From positions 7,289,001-7,353,000 of the forward strand of contig NC_083515.1 of the NCBI RefSeq assembly GCF_032362555.1: 64,000 bases of DNA, written 5' to 3'. Made by a program: the position numbers and the translations under genes. The notes beneath the pieces are model-generated. The model had not been told where the DNA came from. It searched no databases and saw nothing but the letters and a program-made list of their open reading frames with translations. The stretch is from Amyelois transitella (lineage: Eukaryota > Arthropoda > Insecta > Lepidoptera > Pyralidae). Of this stretch, positions 1-40,200 are shown in pieces (position 1 is the stretch's first letter; each line of letters starts with the position of its first letter).

Positions 1-470
1 TGAAATAACCTTTTTTTACTAAAATTTTTGAAATTGCATCATGTCTTACCTATTAGTAAATAAGATTGCTTAATTTAGTAGGTTTCTTAAACAGTTGGTG
101 CAAGGATGGTATGTAAATAGACTATAGTTTTTATAAATTCTTACCCAATATGCTTCAATCATAATCTCATACCTTATTAAGGGTAAACCTGTACTATGAA
201 AATTTAAAATTGTAAGAATGAAAGTGTAATTTTTTGGAAATTGTTAATACTACATGCACTTCCAACCAAAATTACATAAGCCATGCTATTTAGAAGAAAA
301 TTGGTTTTAATCCAATCAATTTGCTAAGCTTTGTCTTTATTTTTAATATAATAACAACTGAGTCATAACTTACTACTAGTAAACCAACTGTACTGATTTA
401 TTAATCTATAAATTTGTGGCTTTGAGACCAGAAACCTGAATTTATACATGTTATTGGATGTTCTGCAAGA
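1..470. other. AT-rich DNA, no gene seen
   Basis: AT-rich sequence with no supported exon, splice pair or recognisable repeat. It may belong to the intron 5' of the first visible CPSF6 exon, but nothing in the bases proves this. Confidence 0.4.
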
Positions 471-7700: not shown

Positions 7701-10700
7701 GTCCTTGTATTTATAACATCACTGCGGTCGAGTATTTTACTACACACGAGATCGTATTGCCCTTCACAGAGCAACAAACAACAACGTGCGGCCAGATCTG
7801 TTCATTAAATGTGCTTGTTTTCCCCCAGGAGTGGGTCCAGGCGCGCCGGCGCCGCACGTGAACCCCGCGTTCTTCAACCAGCAGCCGCCGCAGCCCGCGC
7901 CGCAGCCGCCGCAGCCCGGACCGCCTGGTAACTAATTCCAAATGTAAACTATGATGACTTAATTCATCATTCACTCAAATTAACGTATATAACTTAGAAA
8001 CATTCATTAATACTTGGCCGAGGTGGTATTTGCAACTGTGCCTCTTATGCTTATCAAGCATCTATTAAATCGGGCATCTTATCGATTCGACTACCGAAGC
8101 TCAAACGTCGTCTACAATTAAGCTAATGTACAGAATAAATCAAACACCTATTTTTAGTTAGATATCTTACACGCTCGACTTGTACTAGAGGGCTTTAATT
8201 AAAATCACACATTCATAAAAGGTTTTTAATTCTTATAATAATGTAAACGTCAAAGAGTATAGTAAAAAGAGTTTTACTATACGGCAAAATGAGGCACCAA
8301 TAGTATACCGGCCCACTGTATATATATATGTATATACGCCTCACTCACACACTGTCACCAATAGTGTGAGAGCAGGCCGCCATTACGTCATAGATGCGTC
8401 ATAGATTATCTCATTTTCTGTTACTCACACATGCTTACAATGCCGCCATTAGGAAGTTTCACTTTTTTTTCAAGCCACACTACGTCTACCTTTTTTTACG
8501 CCTATAGTTAACATTGAATGTTTGTGTAGGACCTGGAGCACCGTACGGCCACCCGCCGCCGACCGCACAGGGCCCGCCGCCCGGAGCGAGGCAGCCGTAC
8601 GGCCGTCCGCCACAGGTAATACAATAAAATTTATTTATTTTTATTGTAGGCTTTTAATCAAATTAAAGTTGTGCTAAATTAATAAGTGTTTGAGGAAATT
8701 ATGTAGTTTACTTTAGCTATATTTTATGGCTTATTATTCATCATATCTGCCTTAAAGAATATAAATATTTATTTAACACCCTGGTCTGAATGTGTTTTTT
8801 CCATTCACCCTAAAAAGGTTCTATTATTAATATGATTTGTATTTTACCTATGTACATTGTTCACGTAATTGTTAGAATGTGGTATGTATAAATGGAGCAG
8901 TATGACGGGTTACAGAGCTACCCGCCGGCGGAGGCGGCGCGCGCGCCGCTGCACGCCGCGCCGCACGCGCCGCTCGCCGCGCCGCCGCACGCGCCCGTGC
9001 CCGCCATCTCCGAGGCTGAGTTCGAAGAGGTACGTCTCGTTACTTGTACAAAGCAAATTGCCGTGTGGTTCCCTTTAGGATAAGACCAGTCCGTATCAAT
9101 CCCATGGATGTCGTTAAAGGCGACCCAGGAAAAGACTTATAAACATGGGATTCTTGTAGGCGAGTGGCCAGCAACCTGTCACTATTTGAATCTTAATTCA
9201 GCTCAATGTGGCTTTTCTGGTTCTATTTACCCCATAAGCCATATTGATATGATTATAAGTATGTAATTTTCAAATATAAATTCGTAAATATTAAAATAAC
9301 TTGTTACAGTTACACGGATAAAAACAGCTTGTTCCTAGTCAAAAAGTCTGACAATATTGGGTTCTCAAAGGGTATAGCCGGATAAGTATGACGATCTGGC
9401 CTCCAAATGAGAACCTTTATCGAAACTTATGTTCTAATATCGCCTTGATGTACAAACACAATTTATGTACTTTTCGCGGCCAGCTTTCGCTTTTACCTTG
9501 AGATATGGGAAAAAATAATCGCACGCATGACTTTTATTCAAAGTCATATATCTCAAAAATTAATTACGCTAGAGAGATGAGACCAACGCGAGTTTTTAGA
9601 TTACATTGCAGAGTATATCATATATTATTTTCAAATTTTTAGAGTATATTTATATATAAAAAAAATTAAAAAATAAGTTAATCATAATTTTTTTTTCATG
9701 TTCTCTGAGACTTACAATCACGAAAATAATATATGTTATGCTCCTTTACGTGCTCTATTACTCATAAAAATTTGGTAAAAAAAAAGTTGGTGCAACACTT
9801 TGAAAAAAAAAATAATGTGATTAGCGCCTTCTACTATACCCTTGTTCTATAAGGCCTACATTACATTTTATTCATTTTTTCGAAGTGTTGCACCAACTTG
9901 ATTTTATTCACAGGCTCGTATCAATTTTCACAGGCTTTATCTTACTTGGCCGAAATAATGGACGATCAAAATAATCTTTTAGTACAATATGTGAAATCAG
10001 CATCTAATATCATTAAAGCAGAAGTAAAATCAAGGCATATAAATAGTAAAGTCTATCGTATTTACATTCACTATATTTCCGATGGTAATGATTACAATAG
10101 TATTCTCCGTTATTGGTGTGATTGTCCCAATGGCAACCGTACAGTGGGGTGCTGTTCACATACAGCAGCTATTATTTATTATCTGTCATATGGACGATAT
10201 TTGTCCAAAATTTTGCGTCCTTCTGAAGTCCTCACTAAAATATTTGCTACTCAAAATGTTCCAGTAATAATTAATTACAATAGTGACGATGATTAATTTT
10301 TTTCTCTTTTTGCTATTTTGATTAACACGAAAAGTAATAAAAGTTGTGATAAATATTGGACATTGGTTATTTTTTCTTTTCTTTTTGAACAATTATTCCA
10401 ACCCTTATCAAGTTGGTGCAACACTTCGAAAAAATGAATAAAATGTAATGTAGGCCTTATAGAACAAGGGTATAGTAGAAGGCGCTAATCACATTATTTT
10501 TTTTTCAAAGTGTTGCACCAACTTTTTTTTTACCAAATTTTTATGAGTAATAGAGCACGTAAATGAGCATAACATATATTATTTTCGTGATTGTAAGTCT
10601 CAGAGAACATGAAAAAAAAATTATGATTAACTTATTTTTTAATTTTTTTTATATATAAATATACTCTAAAAATTTGAAAATAATATATGATATACTCTGC

Positions 10701-13624
10701 AATGTAATCTAAAAACTCGCGTTGGTCTCATCTCTCTAGCGTAATTAATTTTTGAGATATATGACTTTGAATAAAAGTCATGCGTGCGATTATTTTTTCC
10801 CATATCTCAAGGTCAAAGCGAAAGCTGGCCGCGAAAAGTACATAAATTGTGTTTGTACATCAAGGCGATATTAGAACATAAGTTTCGATAAAGGTTCTCA
10901 TTTGGAGGCCAGATCGTCATACTTATCCGGCTATACCCTTTACGGCACTGATCAGATCTGATCAGTCTAACTTCAAAATTCGACTGCTATTTTCTCGTTT
11001 TTTGATAGTCTAAATAAATCCATAGAATTCTTAAATTATAAAAATCATGCTATGGGACTCCAAAATTACTTGAAAACATACAGTTTTAATACAATACCAT
11101 ACTTTTGTTCACTGCAGGTGATGAATCGCAACAGAACTGTATCTTCGAGTGCGATAGCTCGCGCGGTGAGCGACGCGGCGGCTGGCGAATACGCTTCCGC
11201 CATAGAGACGCTAGTCACTGCTATATCACTCATCAAGCAGAGCAAGGTAAATAATGAGATCTTCTTACATCTTGTGCATCATCATACGTAGGATGTATGA
11301 AATGTGTGTATGTATGAATCTTTGGTATGCCTTGAATCTGGTTATGATAGCAGTGTTGTTTATGAGGTTTCTAAACATGTATTATATTATATGGTAAAAC
11401 ACCATTTATTGTGATATTGATTGAGGCAGTGAATAACTAACTCCAGGCTCTGAAGTTTGTTGAGACTGCAACTGAAAATTTCAATTTCTACGATGAAAGA
11501 GTGAGAGAGTATTTATAACAGAGAGGGTCACAGAGTTCGAACAGCAGTATAATGATAATAATTCTGACCAAGACTGAATACTCAGTCATATGCGACTCTG
11601 GGTTCTCACTTCAACTTCTAAAAAAGCAGTGCTCCGTCAAAATTTGAATCCTTTCAAATTTTAAGTCAACTGTTCTTTTTTTTAAGGTGGCCCACGACGA
11701 CCGTTGCAAGATACTTATCTCGTCCCTCCAAGATACACTGCACGGTGTCGAGACTAAATCCTATAGCAGCGGTGAAAGGAGGCGTTCTCGTTCCAGAGAA
11801 AGGGATGCGCGTGCGCACCACAGAGCACCGCGCCGCAGGGAACGCTCCGCCAGCAGATACCGGGAGAGGAGTCGCGAGCGAGAAGAGAGGGACCGGTATG
11901 TACTAGAAGATATCTTGCACACCACAAAGTATATAATATCTGGAAACCATGGTTTATTTACTATAAGGATTTATTCTAGAAGAACAACTTACCTTGAAAA
12001 TTTTTGATATCCCAATTTTGTGTTTAATAAGGAGATTCGCTTCCAGACTTTATGTACTGTAATGTACATTCACATCCCGTTTTTATCTCTTAAGCATTCT
12101 TCTCTATAAGCACATTGTCGTATGAAATGCACGCCTCTTTTAAACGCTTCAAAAGACAACCTTCGCCTATTCTTGTCTTGTATGTAATGCGTCAAAACTT
12201 AGCCGGACCCTGATTGGTTGCAGGTACAGGGAACGGTCCAGAGACCGCGATCGTGAACGCGAGCGTGACGCGTAAGTGCAATCAATTGTACACAAGTCGT
12301 GGACCGCATACCGCTTGTATATTTTTGAAGCCCACCGATCACGCTTGCAAATTGAGCTGAAACGCGAATGAACTTCGATCGTTTTGGAATTTTACCATCA
12401 AGAATTCAATTTTTACTTTAAATTTTTACCGTTTATCTGATATTCTCTTTAAAGATATGTTATGTATTGTTTTCGATCTAATCAAATCTACAAAACTATT
12501 GTTCCGATGCCAACATGGTAGAAATCATGGAGAGGTTCAATTGCGTTTCAGGTCATCTTATTAGCGCGGTCGGAGGCAGTCATGTGAAGATGAAACTTGA
12601 CCTTGTGAAAGGAGATTAAAAATTTAAAATTTGTCACAATAATCAAGCTTTATTTTCATAATACTGTTACGTGAAAAAGAATAGAAGATGATTTGCAATA
12701 TAGATTAAGCTTTTCAAACGCATTTTTCATTCTGATACTACAATAATTACAAATACATAAATTTTGTTTGGATGAGCCGTCTCTGAGGAAATGAAAGCTA
12801 AAACGCCCAGAAATGCCGTGAAAGTGATAAGTGCCTTGAGAAATCTTGTTGGAGCCTAAATAGGACCTAAGAGAGAAAAAAGACGAAATGACATTTGTGG
12901 TACTTTATTTATATATTTATATAGTGGTTTACATTGTTCCAGGTATTACAGGGACTATAGGGAGCGTGAACGTGACCGCTCCAGGTCGCGGGACAGGGAA
13001 CGCACTGACCATTACAACAGGGGACACAGTAGGGAAGAGAGGTAATTCTTATAGATTACTACTTTCGCCGGCGGTCCGCCTGTACGGACAAATAAATACT
13101 GTCACATACTAAGATTTATAATCTTAGTATTGTTCGAAGATATGATTTAGATGTCTATCAATGACTAATTTAGTAAAGAAACGAAAACTACTTCCTACCC
13201 CTGGCGTCATTTGAATCTCAATTCCATCATAAAGCCATACAACTGTATGCGATCTCTCAGTATTTTCAAAAATGTTGGCTCTGCTACCTCGCAAGGGATA
13301 AAGTAGACGTAATTATATGTATGTATGTTTTCCCTCATCGCAAGAGCATCAGTTATTTATAACTCGAAGAGATTCCTCTCCTATTCGTCACGCTTTTTTA
13401 TTCAGGGGCCCTAACGAGGAAGTGACATAATGTGTCTGTATCTCCATCGCAGGCCCCGCAAGTCGCCGGTGGAGGCGGCGCCGGAGGCGGGCGCGGGCGA
13501 CGCGGGCGGCAAGGCGCGCGCGGCGCCCTACTACGACGAGCGCTACCGCGAGCGCCGCGAGCGCGACGCCGCGCCCACCGAGCGCGAGCGCGAGCGCGAC
13601 CACCGCCGCGACCAGCGCCACTAG
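4744..13624 (+). CDS. CPSF6: CPSF6, cleavage factor Im 68-kDa-type subunit (5' partial)
   Basis: CPSF6 pairs with NUDT21 in cleavage factor Im, which binds UGUA elements and directs poly(A) site choice in the nucleus. Thirteen exons are seen: 4744-4959, 5223-5322, 5801-6018, 6108-6275, 7117-7204, 7829-7927, 8530-8615, 8901-9029, 11118-11246, 11687-11895, 12224-12271, 12943-13041, 13453-13624. They join in frame to 586 residues. Exon 1 gives the second half of the RRM ([14 protein letters not shown], then [14 protein letters not shown]). Exons 2-8 give a long Pro/Gly/His/Gln-rich region including APHVNPAFF. Exons 8-10 give the conserved [25 protein letters not shown] and ISLIKQSKV block. The rest is an Arg-Ser/Arg-Glu-rich tail typical of SR-like proteins. 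The N-terminal acidic part and first RRM strand are missing, probably upstream of the window. A foldback transposon sits between exons 8 and 9. Confidence 0.93.
6288..6421 (-). repeat. Retroelement 3'-end fragment (minus)
   Basis: TTTATTGCACAG, the complement of a TGTGCAATAAA-type 3' end, is followed by GATCTCTTCCAGTCAACC. The latter motif recurs at 37009-37028 and, in plus orientation and diverged form, at 57202-57220. This points to one LINE- or SINE-type family. It lies in a CPSF6 intron and has no coding capacity. Confidence 0.45.
6841..6930 (+). repeat. RTE-like LINE 3' fragment
   Basis: ACTAAACAAATATACAAGG, then GAGAGTGTG and GGAGTGGGAAG, matches the 3' coding end of the LINE at 21873-21923 with several mismatches. 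It is an old fragment in a CPSF6 intron. Confidence 0.6.
7277..7313. repeat. Perfect 17-bp hairpin in CPSF6 intron
   Basis: TGGCATTATCAGACGTA, loop TCA, then its exact reverse complement. Nothing around it suggests a transposon end. Confidence 0.75.
8257..8282. repeat. 11-bp-stem hairpin in CPSF6 intron
   Basis: GTATAGTAAAA, loop AGAG, TTTTACTATAC. A TA-rich tract and an unassigned block containing two copies of CCGCCATTA follow at 8311-8470. Confidence 0.6.
9060..9216 (+). repeat. SINE-like fragment, 5' part
   Basis: GCCGTGTGGTTCCC, then CCCATGGATGTCGTTAAAGG, then GCAACCTGTCACTATTTGAA. This is the 5' two thirds of the SINE seen complete at 17389-17652, diverged and lacking the tail. Confidence 0.65.
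9368..9900. repeat. Left inverted arm of foldback element
   Basis: Reverse complement of 10409-10941 over its full 533 bp. It contains the inner motif pair at 9784-9800 and 9883-9899. Confidence 0.88.
9934..10296 (+). pseudogene. SWIM zinc-finger fragment of a MULE-type transposon protein
   Basis: An open frame follows a plausible acceptor (TTTTCACAG, ends 9933). The first ATG is at 9958 and the stop at 10294. The translation contains W-C-D-C-P-N-G, eight residues, then C-S-H. This is the CxC...CxH pattern of the SWIM domain, followed by [12 protein letters not shown] and an acidic NSDDD C-terminus. SWIM domains accompany the DDE transposase in Mutator-like elements. No DDE core is present, so this looks like a captured 3'-terminal exon that cannot transpose the element by itself. 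Its frame is intact, so it is either recent or still selected. Confidence 0.7.
10409..10941. repeat. Right inverted arm of foldback element
   Basis: Pairs with 9368-9900. The outer end CCGGCTATACCCTTT abuts ACGGCACTG of the flank. Confidence 0.88.
10947..10966. repeat. 20-bp perfect palindrome beside the foldback element
   Basis: ACTGATCAGATCTGATCAGT, five bases outside the right arm. It may have marked the insertion site, but the left flank has no copy. Confidence 0.7.
13205..13330 (+). repeat. SINE-like fragment, 3' part with (TATG)n tail
   Basis: TCATTTGAATCTCAATTCC, TGTTGGCTCTGC, CCTCGCAAGGGATAAAGTAG, then ATATGTATGTATG. This is the 3' half of the same SINE family, in the last CPSF6 intron. 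Confidence 0.65.
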
Positions 13625-15796: not shown

Positions 15797-18700
15797 TCAA
15801 TATGATTCTTCAAAGGTCTCATTATGATTGATACCATAGACAGTCTTATTGTCCTTGACATACGCCCAGGACATTCTTTGGGAACTGAAATGGACCCCAA
15901 CTTCGCCATCCTTGGACAATGTAATGGCACCAGCAGTGTTCTTCAAACGCGATGTCATGCCTGGAAGAATAAATATAAGTTGCTTTTTATTTTATTAGGT
16001 TCAACATGTTGATTAATTACAACCAAAATTACTAAGTTTGAATAAATATACGTTGCTTTTTATTTTATTAGGTTCAAAATGTTGATTAATTACAACCAAA
16101 ATTACTAAGTTTAAATTAGAAATACATAGGTACACAGGAAAAGCAATCCCTTCCTAGTAAATTTATTAGAGACTAGCTTTTGCCCCGATTTCGTTCGCCG
16201 TAAAAGTTCACTAAACCTATAGTATTACTTATTATTAGTTAAAAACGCATTCAATACGTGACAAGAGTGACTGTGATCTATGAACAGACATTGGTAAGAT
16301 ACTATTTTATTATATTATTATGTATGTATTCTCACCTTCTACAGCTTTATTCGTCGCAGTTTGTGCATCAACTCCACTTTCCATTAGCTTTATGATGCTA
16401 TGTGCCAAACAGTATTTTAGAATAGATTCACCATGCCCTGGAAGCAAATCGGAATTACTGGTGAAATATGTAGGTATATATTTTTTTTATTTCATGCACT
16501 GATTTAATTTTTTTGTTAAGTAATCAAAAATTATACTGTGTGAGCGTTTGCAATTCGAAGCGAGAACAAATGGCAACTTGAACTTCGTTTCCCTCTTAAC
16601 AAGGCCAGCGCACTTTATTACGCACGTTTCGTTGGCTCTCGAGTGTAGGATAAGGTCTCCGATACGTATTGTACGAACCTGTAGTGGACACCCCGCCCAC
16701 AAGGTCATCAGCATACGTGCCGCTTCCTATTTGCGGGGTGTCTCCGATGCGGCCGACCGCCTTGCCGCTCATGCCGCCCGTACTGGTGGCCACCGCCACG
16801 TGGCCGGCAGCGTCCACGGCTACGGCGCCAACCGTGCCCACGCCACCCTACAACAGATTTATCTAAACTTATTTCATAAAAAGATAATATTAGTATTTTT
16901 TTTATTAATACTCTTTAAACCCGAATTTGGTGAAATCACTGAGCTACTTTTGTTTCTAAATTACCACAAACCCTGGACAAAAGTCTAGTACCTAACCACT
17001 AAATGTTCTCATATTCTTCAAATTAATTAAAGATTTTAATTAAGATTTCAAAATTTTGTAACATTTTGGAAGCCCCACTTATCTCCACCAACAAGAGTTA
17101 GCACTAAATGAAGTAATATATAAAAAGAAGAAGACTTTATATTTCCTCCAGACCTCATCCTTTTCACCTATTTCAGTCCTTCCAAAATCTCCATGTTTGA
17201 GGAAATTGTTCAAAGCTTGCTTTGCGTGTTCACTAATTAAAGACTCTGGCTTGACTGTTGGAAATCCCTAGAAATATAAAATATATTGTCATCAAGCAGG
17301 TATTATAATATGTATTGTCATCAAAATTTTTAAGGTAAAATTGCAGTGTGATTTCCAGCACTTTAAAATTGAACTACTTCATATTTCTTAGTGCCATGTG
17401 GTTCCCGGTACCAATACAAAAAAGAATAGAATCACTCCATTTCTTTCCCATGGATGTCGTAAAAGGCGACTAAGGGATAGGCTCACAAACTTGGGATTCT
17501 TTTTTAGGCGATTGGCTAGCAACCTGTCACTATTCGAATCTCAATTCTATCATTAAGCCAAATAGCTGAACGAGGCCATTCAGTCTTTTCCAGACTGTTG
17601 GCTCTGTCGACCCCGCAAGGGATATAGACGTGACCATATGTATGTATGTATGTCATATTTCTCCCATAGATGTCGTGAAAGGCGATTAAGGTATAAACTT
17701 GGGATTCTTCTTGTAGGAAATGTGCTAGCAACCTATCACTATTTGAATCTCGCATGAAGCCATATAGCTGAATTCTTCTACACTATATGTATATATAATT
17801 TAGTGCTTACATTCCAACAAGTACCTTATATCACAACACAACAAAAACTAAAAATTCCCTTTCCCCACTGAACAGGGAAAGAGAACGGTATAGAAAATAT
17901 TTCACAGTGGATCAGATAGGACAAAAGTAATAATAATGAAAAGTGGATTCGATTAGCTCAGACAGGAATAATTTTATTTAGCTGTACTTGTGAAATAAGA
18001 GTACAAGTACCTTTTCCAATGCAAACAACTTGGCTCCCTCTGCTCCTAATAAAGAATGTGGTGAGTCAGTGAGCACTTTGTGTGCAATACTTATTGGGTG
18101 TAAAAACTCTTTCACCAACGTAACAGCTCCAACATTAAGATCAGAGCCTCGCATTATGCTCGCCTCCATCTCTACTTCCCCACGTAAATTCAGTACGGAA
18201 CCATATCCTGAAATAGGGATAGTTTTCTTAAAAGATGGTTATGTGGTACCACCAATATTCATTATAAAATATTTTGGGTTAGTTTAAAAACCGACCAAGA
18301 GCGAGTCGGACTTGTGGAGGGAAAGGTCGGAGTGGGAAGACCTAGACGAACGTATCTTGATCAAATTAAGGATGTCCTGGTAAAGGGTCAGGTCAAAAGT
18401 ACCCGATACCGCCGAGCTTGCATGAAGAAAGTTATGAATGAGGATGAAGCGAAGGAAGCATGCAGAGACCGTGGCAAGTGGAGGTAGTATCTGCCTACCC
18501 CTCCGGGAAAGAGGCGTGATTTTATATATGTATGTATAAAAATGTTGCATTTCCGAAGGGGCAAACTGGTGATACTATTAAATGTATTCCCATCCACATG
18601 GCTACACAGTGATGCAATAAATATTTCTAAGTTTGAGTTTGAAACATGTTCAATGTATGGTGAAACCCCTTAATATTTCTTTTAAATTTTTAATAGTTGT

Positions 18701-37200: not shown

Positions 37201-40200
37201 CTAGACGCAATTTGCGTAGGCGTATCCTGTTTCCCGTCCGGATATCTCAGCGGCGAAGCCCTTGAAATCAAGTCAAAGAGTTCACGATCCAACGGAAATC
37301 AATATTATACCCTTTCTTCGACTGACGCCATTGCAAGGTTTCCTAAGTCGTAAATATAAGCCTCCGCTCTTAGGTGTTTATCCTCTTAAGTATAATAGGT
37401 ATACAAAATATATCACCGAATACAGTGATTACATTAGAAATGCCTCAGAACACTTATTTTACGTTAAGACGTAAGAGTCAAATTTATCGTTTGAATTATT
37501 TCCTTGAATTAAAATCATTTTTTTTTCTTTTCTCAGAACTATATACTTACAGCCTTTTCTACTTTAGCGCAAAATTTATTCTATTAACGAAATTAAAAAC
37601 GCCGTTAGTCATTAAATTTTACTACTTTGTAGCTACATAAGCAACATAGGCGTATGAATTCACGATTATTCTTGACTTGACCACTGAATTAGATCCGACA
37701 AACCGATCGAAAGCGACCGTATATAGTAATCATTTCGTTCGCCTTTTACAAGCTTATAAATGAAACTGTTATTGATGTTGATGTGATAGCTACTAGAACA
37801 GTAGTACCAAATCCAATACGATTGTGCGTATCAATTTGATACCAACTTTAGATTGCAAATGGCAATGGTATATCTGGCCGGGTGTCCGGTGACCGGCGCC
37901 TGCGGCCGGTGACTCATCCGGCGGCTGCTACGTGATCACAATCGGACGTAGACCTCGACGCGGCGCAGACATGACCATCACAATAAATAAACCTCTCAGC
38001 CGTCATAATTTTATATCAAACATATTCAATGTACCTGCTTGATTGATTATATCCGTTGCTGATTGTTTCATAGAATGTTACACTAACTCCACTGTTAGAT
38101 CAGTTTGGCAAAAAGACGACGTGAGAAAAATTAGATCTTAGTTTCGAAAAATATTCAACCTTTTTTTACATGTTTTGTAAGTAACTTAACTTTCACCGGG
38201 CTTCACATACTAACTAACCCTTCTAGTACTTTGATCTTTATTTTGCGTCGAAGGGGACCTATATTTTATCTCAGTTACGAACATCTAACATATAATATAT
38301 TTTTATATTTTAACTTCTAATAGATCTTTATATCTATCGCGGTGTACAAAAGAACAGGCATCGGCGAAGGTCATCAAACTCCCTCAAGCTTGCTTTACAA
38401 CGTTTCCGCAACACTTCTCTCGCATCCAATTTGTTCACCAGATGAGGTCACACAGTAGGCTTATTGGGCAAAAATCTTTAGGTAGGTACTGCCTTTTGCC
38501 GGAATAAACACTAGGAAACAGTGATGTATCTTCGTGCTATTCTTATACTTTTCTTATTCCTTATGAAGTGTCTTTCCTGGCACCAAAAGAAAAATAATAC
38601 TCATAACCACTCCATCTCTTTCCAATGGATGCCTTTTTTCTCATCAGTCTTTTCAACACTGTTGGCTCTGTCTACCCCGCAAGGGATATAGACGTGGATA
38701 TATGTGTGTATACCTATTGGTTTAGTATCGTAACTTTCTATGATTTTGAACCTAGGCTAGGGACACGCGAGTGGCGAAGTTCTTAATTTAAAACACTGTA
38801 GTAAATGAAAACAAAATACATACTAGTAATACAATGAATACCTGTAAGTATGTAAGACTTTTTTTATCCGTCACCAAAAATGCAAATGCAATTTTTGTCT
38901 TTTTTTAAATGTCGTGTCGTGAGTAAGCGTGAAAGCTACTTTCATCTTTTAACAGTGATCGTTGTTTTCCTTTTTTAGGCTTCTGTACTTTAATAGGGGA
39001 AATAGAACTTTTACACCGCTATAAAAGTTGGTAAACTTAACAGTAATGACCCTAGAGTCTTTTAGGAACACATAATTATAGTTTGATATACCAAGAAAAT
39101 AAACCAACATTTGTAAGTTAGACATGTTTTATTTGATAAAGGCATTTGTGAGTGCCTTGCACTTATTGACACTTACATATATTCACGTTTAGCGGGGTAG
39201 ACAGAGCCAACAGTCTTAAAAAAACTGATTGACCTCGTTCATCTGTTTGGCTTATTGGTAGAATTGAGATTCAAATAGTGACAGGTTGCTAGCCCGTCCC
39301 CTAAAAGTAGAATCTCAAGTTTATAAGCCTATCCCTTAGTTGCCTTTTACGACATACATGGGAATGATAGGGAGTGGTCCTATTTTTTTTATTGGTGCCA
39401 CCACACGGCACATAAATTGACACTTGCAAGTAATAAAAATAGTTTACGAATGAACAGAACCTTCACGACTGATATTCGCACTTGACCGGTTAATTTATTT
39501 TAAAATCAATGAACAAAACCAGTTATTTTGTAGGTGTGCTTTCGTTCTCTGATAATTAAATGGAAATCTGCTCAATAAAAAAAGAACAGGAAAAATTTAC
39601 TTTCCTTCTTGATATTTTACATCTATTATCTCAGAAATGTATGAATAATAAAATATTTTCTAAGGTTTTTTCTAATTTTAGACGGAGAACTAGTAGCTGG
39701 AGAGCTAGTGAACCCTCCGAGTAACGGTGTTCCTGTAAGGCTAGAAATTTGTAGAGTGATGATTCATAGCACACCAAGGCCAAAAATCATGACCTGGCAG
39801 GCATCTGCCCTGCACGTCATCATCACTTTTATTTCTTAAAATGTAAAAAAAATAGGAAAAATAAACTTCCTGCTGTAAGCTTCAAAATTTAATATCATCT
39901 ATTTTATTTATTGATAATTATAAAAAAAAAATTGCCAGGCGATTAGAGTAAGCACAAGTACCTGCCAGGTGCATCGAGAACTGCACATTTTAGGAAGAAA
40001 AATAAACTTTCTTCTGTAAAGTTGAAATTTAAGTATATGTTTCAGTATATCATTTAGAAGAAATGTGTACAATGACAGGCGGTTCTGAACAGCATAAGAC
40101 CTTGACAGGCGAGGGGAAAGATGCTAAGAGCGTGCTAGTAAGAGGCGTAACGTAATTGCATGTAGAGTCAGTGACATGAAAAAAAAAATTAAAGATGCAA

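Follow-up and report, generated by a model that had tools for sequence, protein, structure and literature searches.

The foldback element in a CPSF6 intron of Amyelois transitella belongs to a Spy-type (PHIS) family of non-autonomous transposons that lies between AAA and TTT without target-site duplication. We are confident that this family is a trans-mobilised deletion derivative of the Spy group with expanding, mutually corrected arms. It is ordinary in kind, a long-armed Spy-type family in which a piece of transposase rides along as a passenger, and not a new kind of system. The copy described here lies in the window, the whole 64,000-nucleotide stretch that was analysed (C11:7289001-7353000 of a 327-Mb genome in 33 contigs). 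Copies elsewhere are given as L-numbered loci.

Self-comparison of the window places the foldback at 9367-10941 (1575 bp). Its arms, 9367-9902 and 10407-10941, measure about 535 bp each. One comparison aligns them as two gapless blocks, 445 and 99 nt in length; another, over 536 columns, shows 2 mismatches and 1 gap (99.44% identity). The core between them is about 504 bp long. Its structure, a short core flanked by very long and near-identical inverted arms, makes it a foldback-like element. The earlier note had described a foldback inside a CPSF6 intron, and this placement is borne out by the arm alignment, the GT and AG splice sites, and the joined ends of the flanking exons (EAEFEE / VMNRNR...), which match Pfam RSLD_CPSF6 with an E value of 1.1e-24. 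Minus the element, the intron would be about 513 bp long. The frame with the SWIM zinc finger is on the same strand as CPSF6. Near-identity of the arms was correctly noticed (99.4%), but they are neither perfect nor exactly 533 bp, the core is not 508 bp, and the start at 9368 was one base late. The best reading of AAA (9367-9369) and TTT (10939-10941) is as two halves of an AAATTT target, which leaves 9370-10938 as the element proper. The features are as follows.

9030-11117, + strand: host CPSF6 intron, 2088 bp, with GT at 9030 and AG at 11117 read directly
9367-10941, + strand: whole element, Spy-type (PHIS) non-autonomous transposon, from the family ends and the empty sites of other copies
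9367-9902, + strand: left arm (inverted repeat), from the arm alignment and comparison with L019
9784-9899, + strand: inner imperfect palindrome of the arm, 116 bp, from inverted-repeat search and RNA fold
9900-10296, + strand: remnant of a transposase C-terminal module, 44% identity (E 1.7e-18) to the SWIM end of the L046 frame
about 10090-10185, + strand: SWIM part, with the stop at 10294-10296 and the first in-frame ATG at 9958, from the frame and a Pfam scan
9901-9936, + strand: supposed acceptor region; the L019 equivalent codes (12 residues) and aligns with the L046 transposase frame
10297-10406, + strand: 3' untranslated part of the lost gene, common to the sister subfamily (L078, 78.4% over 116 columns; L077, 79.3% over 121 columns)
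10407-10941, - strand: right arm, aligning with the right arm of L078 (element positions 1-540, 78.8%)

The inner end of each arm forms a strong 116-bp hairpin by itself. An RNA fold of 9784-9905 gave -51.9 kcal/mol (z -10.6), and none of 200 shuffles folded equally well.

The earlier note had staked its transposon reading on further copies with the same ends, and a pattern search of the genome found them. The 15-bp end occurs 37 times, and 34 of these occurrences form 17 facing pairs, including the window copy; three are lone ends (C2, C3:7872034 and C30). The reversed pattern has no match in the same genome. Paired copies are 1297-1893 bp long, and 11 of the 17 measure 1575-1590 bp and have the window layout. 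Here and below, copy and match counts are lower bounds.

AAA precedes all 37 GGGTATAGCCGGATA ends. The first pattern had included AAA, and the search repeated without it returned the same 37 GGGTATAGCCGGATA places. At the other end, CCC/TTT is found in 17 of 17 paired copies. With AAA/TTT taken as the target, a test for repeats of 1-12 bp revealed no target-site duplication at any of 20 sites (17 paired copies, 2 sister copies and 1 SWIM-bearing relative); the flanks alone match by 1 or 2 bp at five of these sites and never by more. Two sets of empty sites were compared. Copy L021 sits within a dispersed repeat, and the sequence obtained by joining its flanks matches across the junction, in register, at no fewer than 40 places scored among 3504 candidates. 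Twelve listed empty places of this type, from 9 of 12 loci, comprise 10 with AAACTT, one with AAATTT and one with AAAATT, and more diverged ones vary further. For the L053 relative, AAATTT stands at all six empty sites, and the junction contains no additional base. Since empty places do not lack these six bases, AAA and TTT are better taken as target than as element. Insertion between AAA and TTT occurs without duplication, as seen at empty sites of L021 and of the L053 relative, none of them from the window copy. Against AAATTT as the target stands AAACTT, the sequence at most empty relatives of the L021 site. The dispersed repeat that hosts L021 is also present in the window, at 17464-17640 and 39196-39399.

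The SWIM frame (9853-10296) encodes 147 aa from stop to stop. It is the longest frame of the element but not the sole one, as had been claimed: 19 frames of at least 40 aa lie in or across the element. Its SWIM identity was upheld by Pfam at E 0.0013 and 18.7 bits, just below the cut-off of 19.6. A genome search with this protein gave 29 matches, namely the family copies and eight other places at 33-45% identity. The SWIM end and a DDE region share one frame in L046, L048, L051, L052 and L053, and occupy different frames in L049; L050, truncated, belongs to the L051-L053 family, and L056 is a decayed relative of L046. Pfam scans, made for L046 and L053, identified DDE_Tnp_4 (E 3e-12 and 6e-16) and no MULE domain; an autonomous member with the arms of the window family was not found. 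The six other places were assigned by similarity or reading. Because the Pfam SWIM matches of L046 and L053 are weak (E 3.4 and 0.019, both under the cut-off), the SWIM link rests on the 44% match and on alignments with shared Cys/His positions. The frame of L019, a less deleted family copy, corresponds to residues 390-583 in the L046 frame (E 8e-24), and its whole length can be aligned with the region that follows the DDE part in L046, L048 and L053. Sequence comparison identifies the SWIM frame as the C-terminal module of transposases of the DDE_Tnp_4 type that occur elsewhere in this genome. The earlier note was thus right to derive the frame from a transposase, given the 44% match to L046. 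Its "MULE-type" label fails: duplications are absent, and none of the eight non-family SWIM places is MULE, mostly by comparison with L046 and L053. A splice acceptor before a "SWIM exon" was rejected too, as the stretch is continuous coding sequence in L019.

The L053 element is 3.8 kb long, with AAAGAGCTATGGCAG and its inverted copy as ends (AAAGAGC..GCTCTTT). Its frame comprises 616 aa, of which 588 aa match DDE_Tnp_4 (E 6e-16) and, weakly, SWIM (E 0.019); short paired-cysteine pieces lie toward the 5' end. Comparison of this protein with solved structures returned chance-level matches, the best at E 0.18. The AAAGAGCTATGGCAG ends mark a second Spy-like family (C32:1428007-1431780 and elsewhere) with 23 ends; three of its facing pairs span 3774, 3390 and 2559 bp, and another six about 810-1025 bp. 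Among the 150 DDE_Tnp_4 matches that were scored, many are concentrated in narrow spots on C7, C19, C20, C23, C27, C30 and C32, for example near 2.9-3.0 Mb on C27 and near 4.8 Mb on C23, as if in transposon-rich islands. The main Spy paper is reportedly Han 2014. In the other literature that was surveyed, we saw no description of a SWIM finger in a Spy or Harbinger transposase, and the word SWIM does not occur in the main text of PMC4482050 or PMC11304231.

How the window layout arose can be approached through copies with other arm lengths. In L019, a left arm of about 465 bp is followed by about 365 bp that the window copy lacks. This extra stretch holds an in-frame ATG and the start of the module, and the L019 frame contains one stop. 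In the window copy, the arm passes into the module at element position 533/534, which is the inner end of the 116-bp imperfect palindrome. L012 carries inverted copies of much of the SWIM module within arms of about 900 bp, and L013 is a palindrome over its whole length (97.7%). The right arm of the window layout appears to have overwritten the left one and, with it, the start of the gene. We read the left arm as a copy of the right arm that reaches the end of the inner hairpin and replaces the 365 bp present in L019, and the right arm as the older, full-length one. This right-to-left direction is suggested by one less-deleted copy and the sister subfamily. The earlier note had mentioned a by-product of arm expansion into the gene, which is what the series of L019, the window layout, L012 and L013 suggests.

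A genome search with the 536-bp arm gave at least 82 matches, many of them to the arm's own inner palindrome. It also revealed an older subfamily at 75-80% identity, whose ends, GGGTTTAGCCGGATA, are 14 of the 51 matches of the end pattern without AAA. The places examined are L077, L078, L081-L084 and L100, the last a remnant of about 327 bp. L077 and L078 have arms and 3' end in common with the window family, and the sole shared 5' side found between L019 and L078 is a 32-column stretch (84%) in the left arm. Where the window family has SWIM, L077 and L078 have zinc-finger-like pieces. The SWIM protein has no match in seven further places of the older subfamily (C8:2991489, C8:11177128, C10:9230733, C10:11103813, C13:5791141, C16:5953807-5954485 and C22:7187457). 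The older sister subfamily likely carries the N-terminal zinc-finger end of the transposase, a grading we keep at likely because the pieces match intact frames weakly (best E 0.002-0.009 for five pieces compared).

The two arms of a copy are more alike than arms of different copies. Over the outer 470 bp, left and right arms diverge by 0.60% within copies and by 0.91% for shuffled partners (10,000 shuffles, p 1e-4). All 17 copies entered this comparison, among them two of ambiguous orientation, L012 and L013. If arms did not exchange sequence, left-right distances should be alike within and between copies, so that the arms of a copy probably correct each other. Divergence among the 11 copies with the window layout is 0.75% in the SWIM frame, 0.62 and 0.76% in the arms, and 0.50% in the 3' core. 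The frame has accumulated 8 replacement, 3 silent and 2 stop changes, compared with 71, 24 and 5% expected, although 13 changes afford little power. Two of the eight replacements and one of the two stops adjoin small insertions (L009 and L016). Residue 62 is Trp in the reference copy, Cys in other copies, and Tyr or Cys in intact relatives. As far as 11 copies can show, the SWIM frame evolves in the manner of neutral DNA.

This neutrality bears on a proposal of the earlier note, that the SWIM fragment is a maintained trans-acting protein that binds the arms and titrates, represses or guides the transposase. The frame is open in 9 of the 17 copies, which could be read as retention, an in-frame ATG is kept in L019, and two sister lineages each seem to retain a different candidate DNA-binding end. 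But since the frame changes like neutral DNA in 11 copies, 3 of which have stops or frameshifts, a maintained titrating or guiding factor is not supported; moreover, the frame is broken or truncated in 8 of the 17 copies, its start is lost from the window layout, and a stop interrupts it in L019. We therefore regard such a factor as very unlikely. A different role would have the intronic copy act on its host: transcribed as part of the CPSF6 pre-mRNA, the arms would fold into a 535-bp hairpin, to be edited or to be diced to give small RNAs that target the family. The geometry of near-identical arms inside a host gene would permit this, but the same applies to any long intronic foldback and leaves the 16 other copies unexplained, and we consider this role unlikely.

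MULE transposases usually have SWIM fingers, and this commonness speaks for a foldback MULE (Mutator-like) that retains a SWIM exon. Foldback-like arms are also known in MULEs such as Tm1 (PMC3169594), and arthropod MULE arms are described at 13-1193 bp (PMC13359780). Tm1 and other foldback MULEs, as described in PMC3169594, resemble the present family in their foldback-like arms of variable length and short non-autonomous copies, but they have a MULE transposase and 9-bp duplications; for MULE and Phantom elements, duplications of about 8-12 bp are described (9-12 in PMC11304231). Here, neither is seen: all 17 paired copies lack a duplication of up to 12 bp, and the SWIM-bearing relatives are DDE_Tnp_4 and not MULE by Pfam (L046 and L053) or by similarity or reading (the others). 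As far as present data go, the absent duplications and the SWIM relatives led us to reject a MULE origin, which we hold to be extremely improbable. ISL2EU-type elements (PHIS, with an A/AT/T target and an AT duplication) have a related transposase and an AT-rich target. In favour of such an element are the TIRs, usually starting with GG, and the THAP-domain transposases described for ISL2EU, which also has an AT duplication and a second gene, YqaJ (PMC4482050). Such a duplication would be expected to leave AAT/../ATT, but no AT duplication is found here, the ends being AAA/GGG (37 ends) and CCC/TTT, and the SWIM-bearing L053 relative has none at six of six empty sites. We consider ISL2EU instead of Spy very unlikely.

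Among other elements with very long, expanding arms, Galileo of Drosophila makes duplications, and it belongs to another superfamily with another transposase. Its arms, as described for this P-superfamily element in PMC3573991 and PMC4168063, grow by recruiting neighbouring internal sequence, are longest in non-autonomous copies and have been proposed to attract recombination and conversion. The closest match is Spy (PHIS), for which an AAATTT target without duplication is described (PMC4482050, PMC11304231). cgSpy of the bee Colletes gigas has 467-bp arms, and Lepidoptera are among the known hosts (PMC11304231). Target, lack of duplication and long arms agree with the present family, and its relatives here have a DDE_Tnp_4-type domain. 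Unlike Spy, the copies here are non-autonomous and retain only the C-terminal SWIM module.

An element with the same arms and a DDE core, the full-length relative that the earlier note suggested looking for, was sought with the 536-nt arm, two end patterns, the SWIM protein and DDE_Tnp_4 (the best 150 of 532 candidates scored), and none was found; for this reason, we infer the source of the transposase. By analogy with Spy, a transposase from a relative elsewhere would bind the arms, excise the element and insert it between AAA and TTT of AAATTT, leaving no duplication. Best kept among the 20-base steps of the arm, compared with six older-subfamily arms, are 361-380 (0.97), 241-260 (0.89), and 1-20 and 81-100 (both 0.88). 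Of these, 361-380 and 241-260 overlap the opposite halves of an inverted repeat within the arm and are, with the outer end, candidate transposase binding sites. To judge from the relatives, the ancestor probably carried a gene for a transposase with zinc finger, DDE and SWIM parts. A deletion would have taken the front of this gene, so that what remained was a short frame encoding the C-terminal SWIM module, as seen in L019. The longer right arm, with the 116-bp hairpin at its inner end, was then probably copied across the left side through gap repair or template switching, which would have given both arms their length of about 535 bp and cost the frame its start. In this form the element multiplied to at least 11 copies, with the SWIM frame as a passenger and the two arms of each copy probably still correcting each other.

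These observations move the foldback family from the MULE guess to the Spy group on the direct evidence of empty sites, and point to a C-terminal SWIM zinc finger in Spy-type transposases. Further reaching, and in our view improbable, is that Spy-type transposases of this lineage are modular (zinc finger, DDE and SWIM), with deletion derivatives split into N-terminal-finger and SWIM lineages; each end alone may still bind the arms or AAATTT, short proteins of decayed copies may once have tuned the transposase, and SWIM may allow this group to join ends without duplication. Contact of the SWIM module with the target, if it occurs, would be relevant to the question why Spy inserts without duplication. 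The graded series of arms, from about 465 through about 535 and about 900 bp to a whole element, suggests how elements with long arms come about, one side being copied onto the other. The family also provides a neat example of decay in small parasitic DNA elements.
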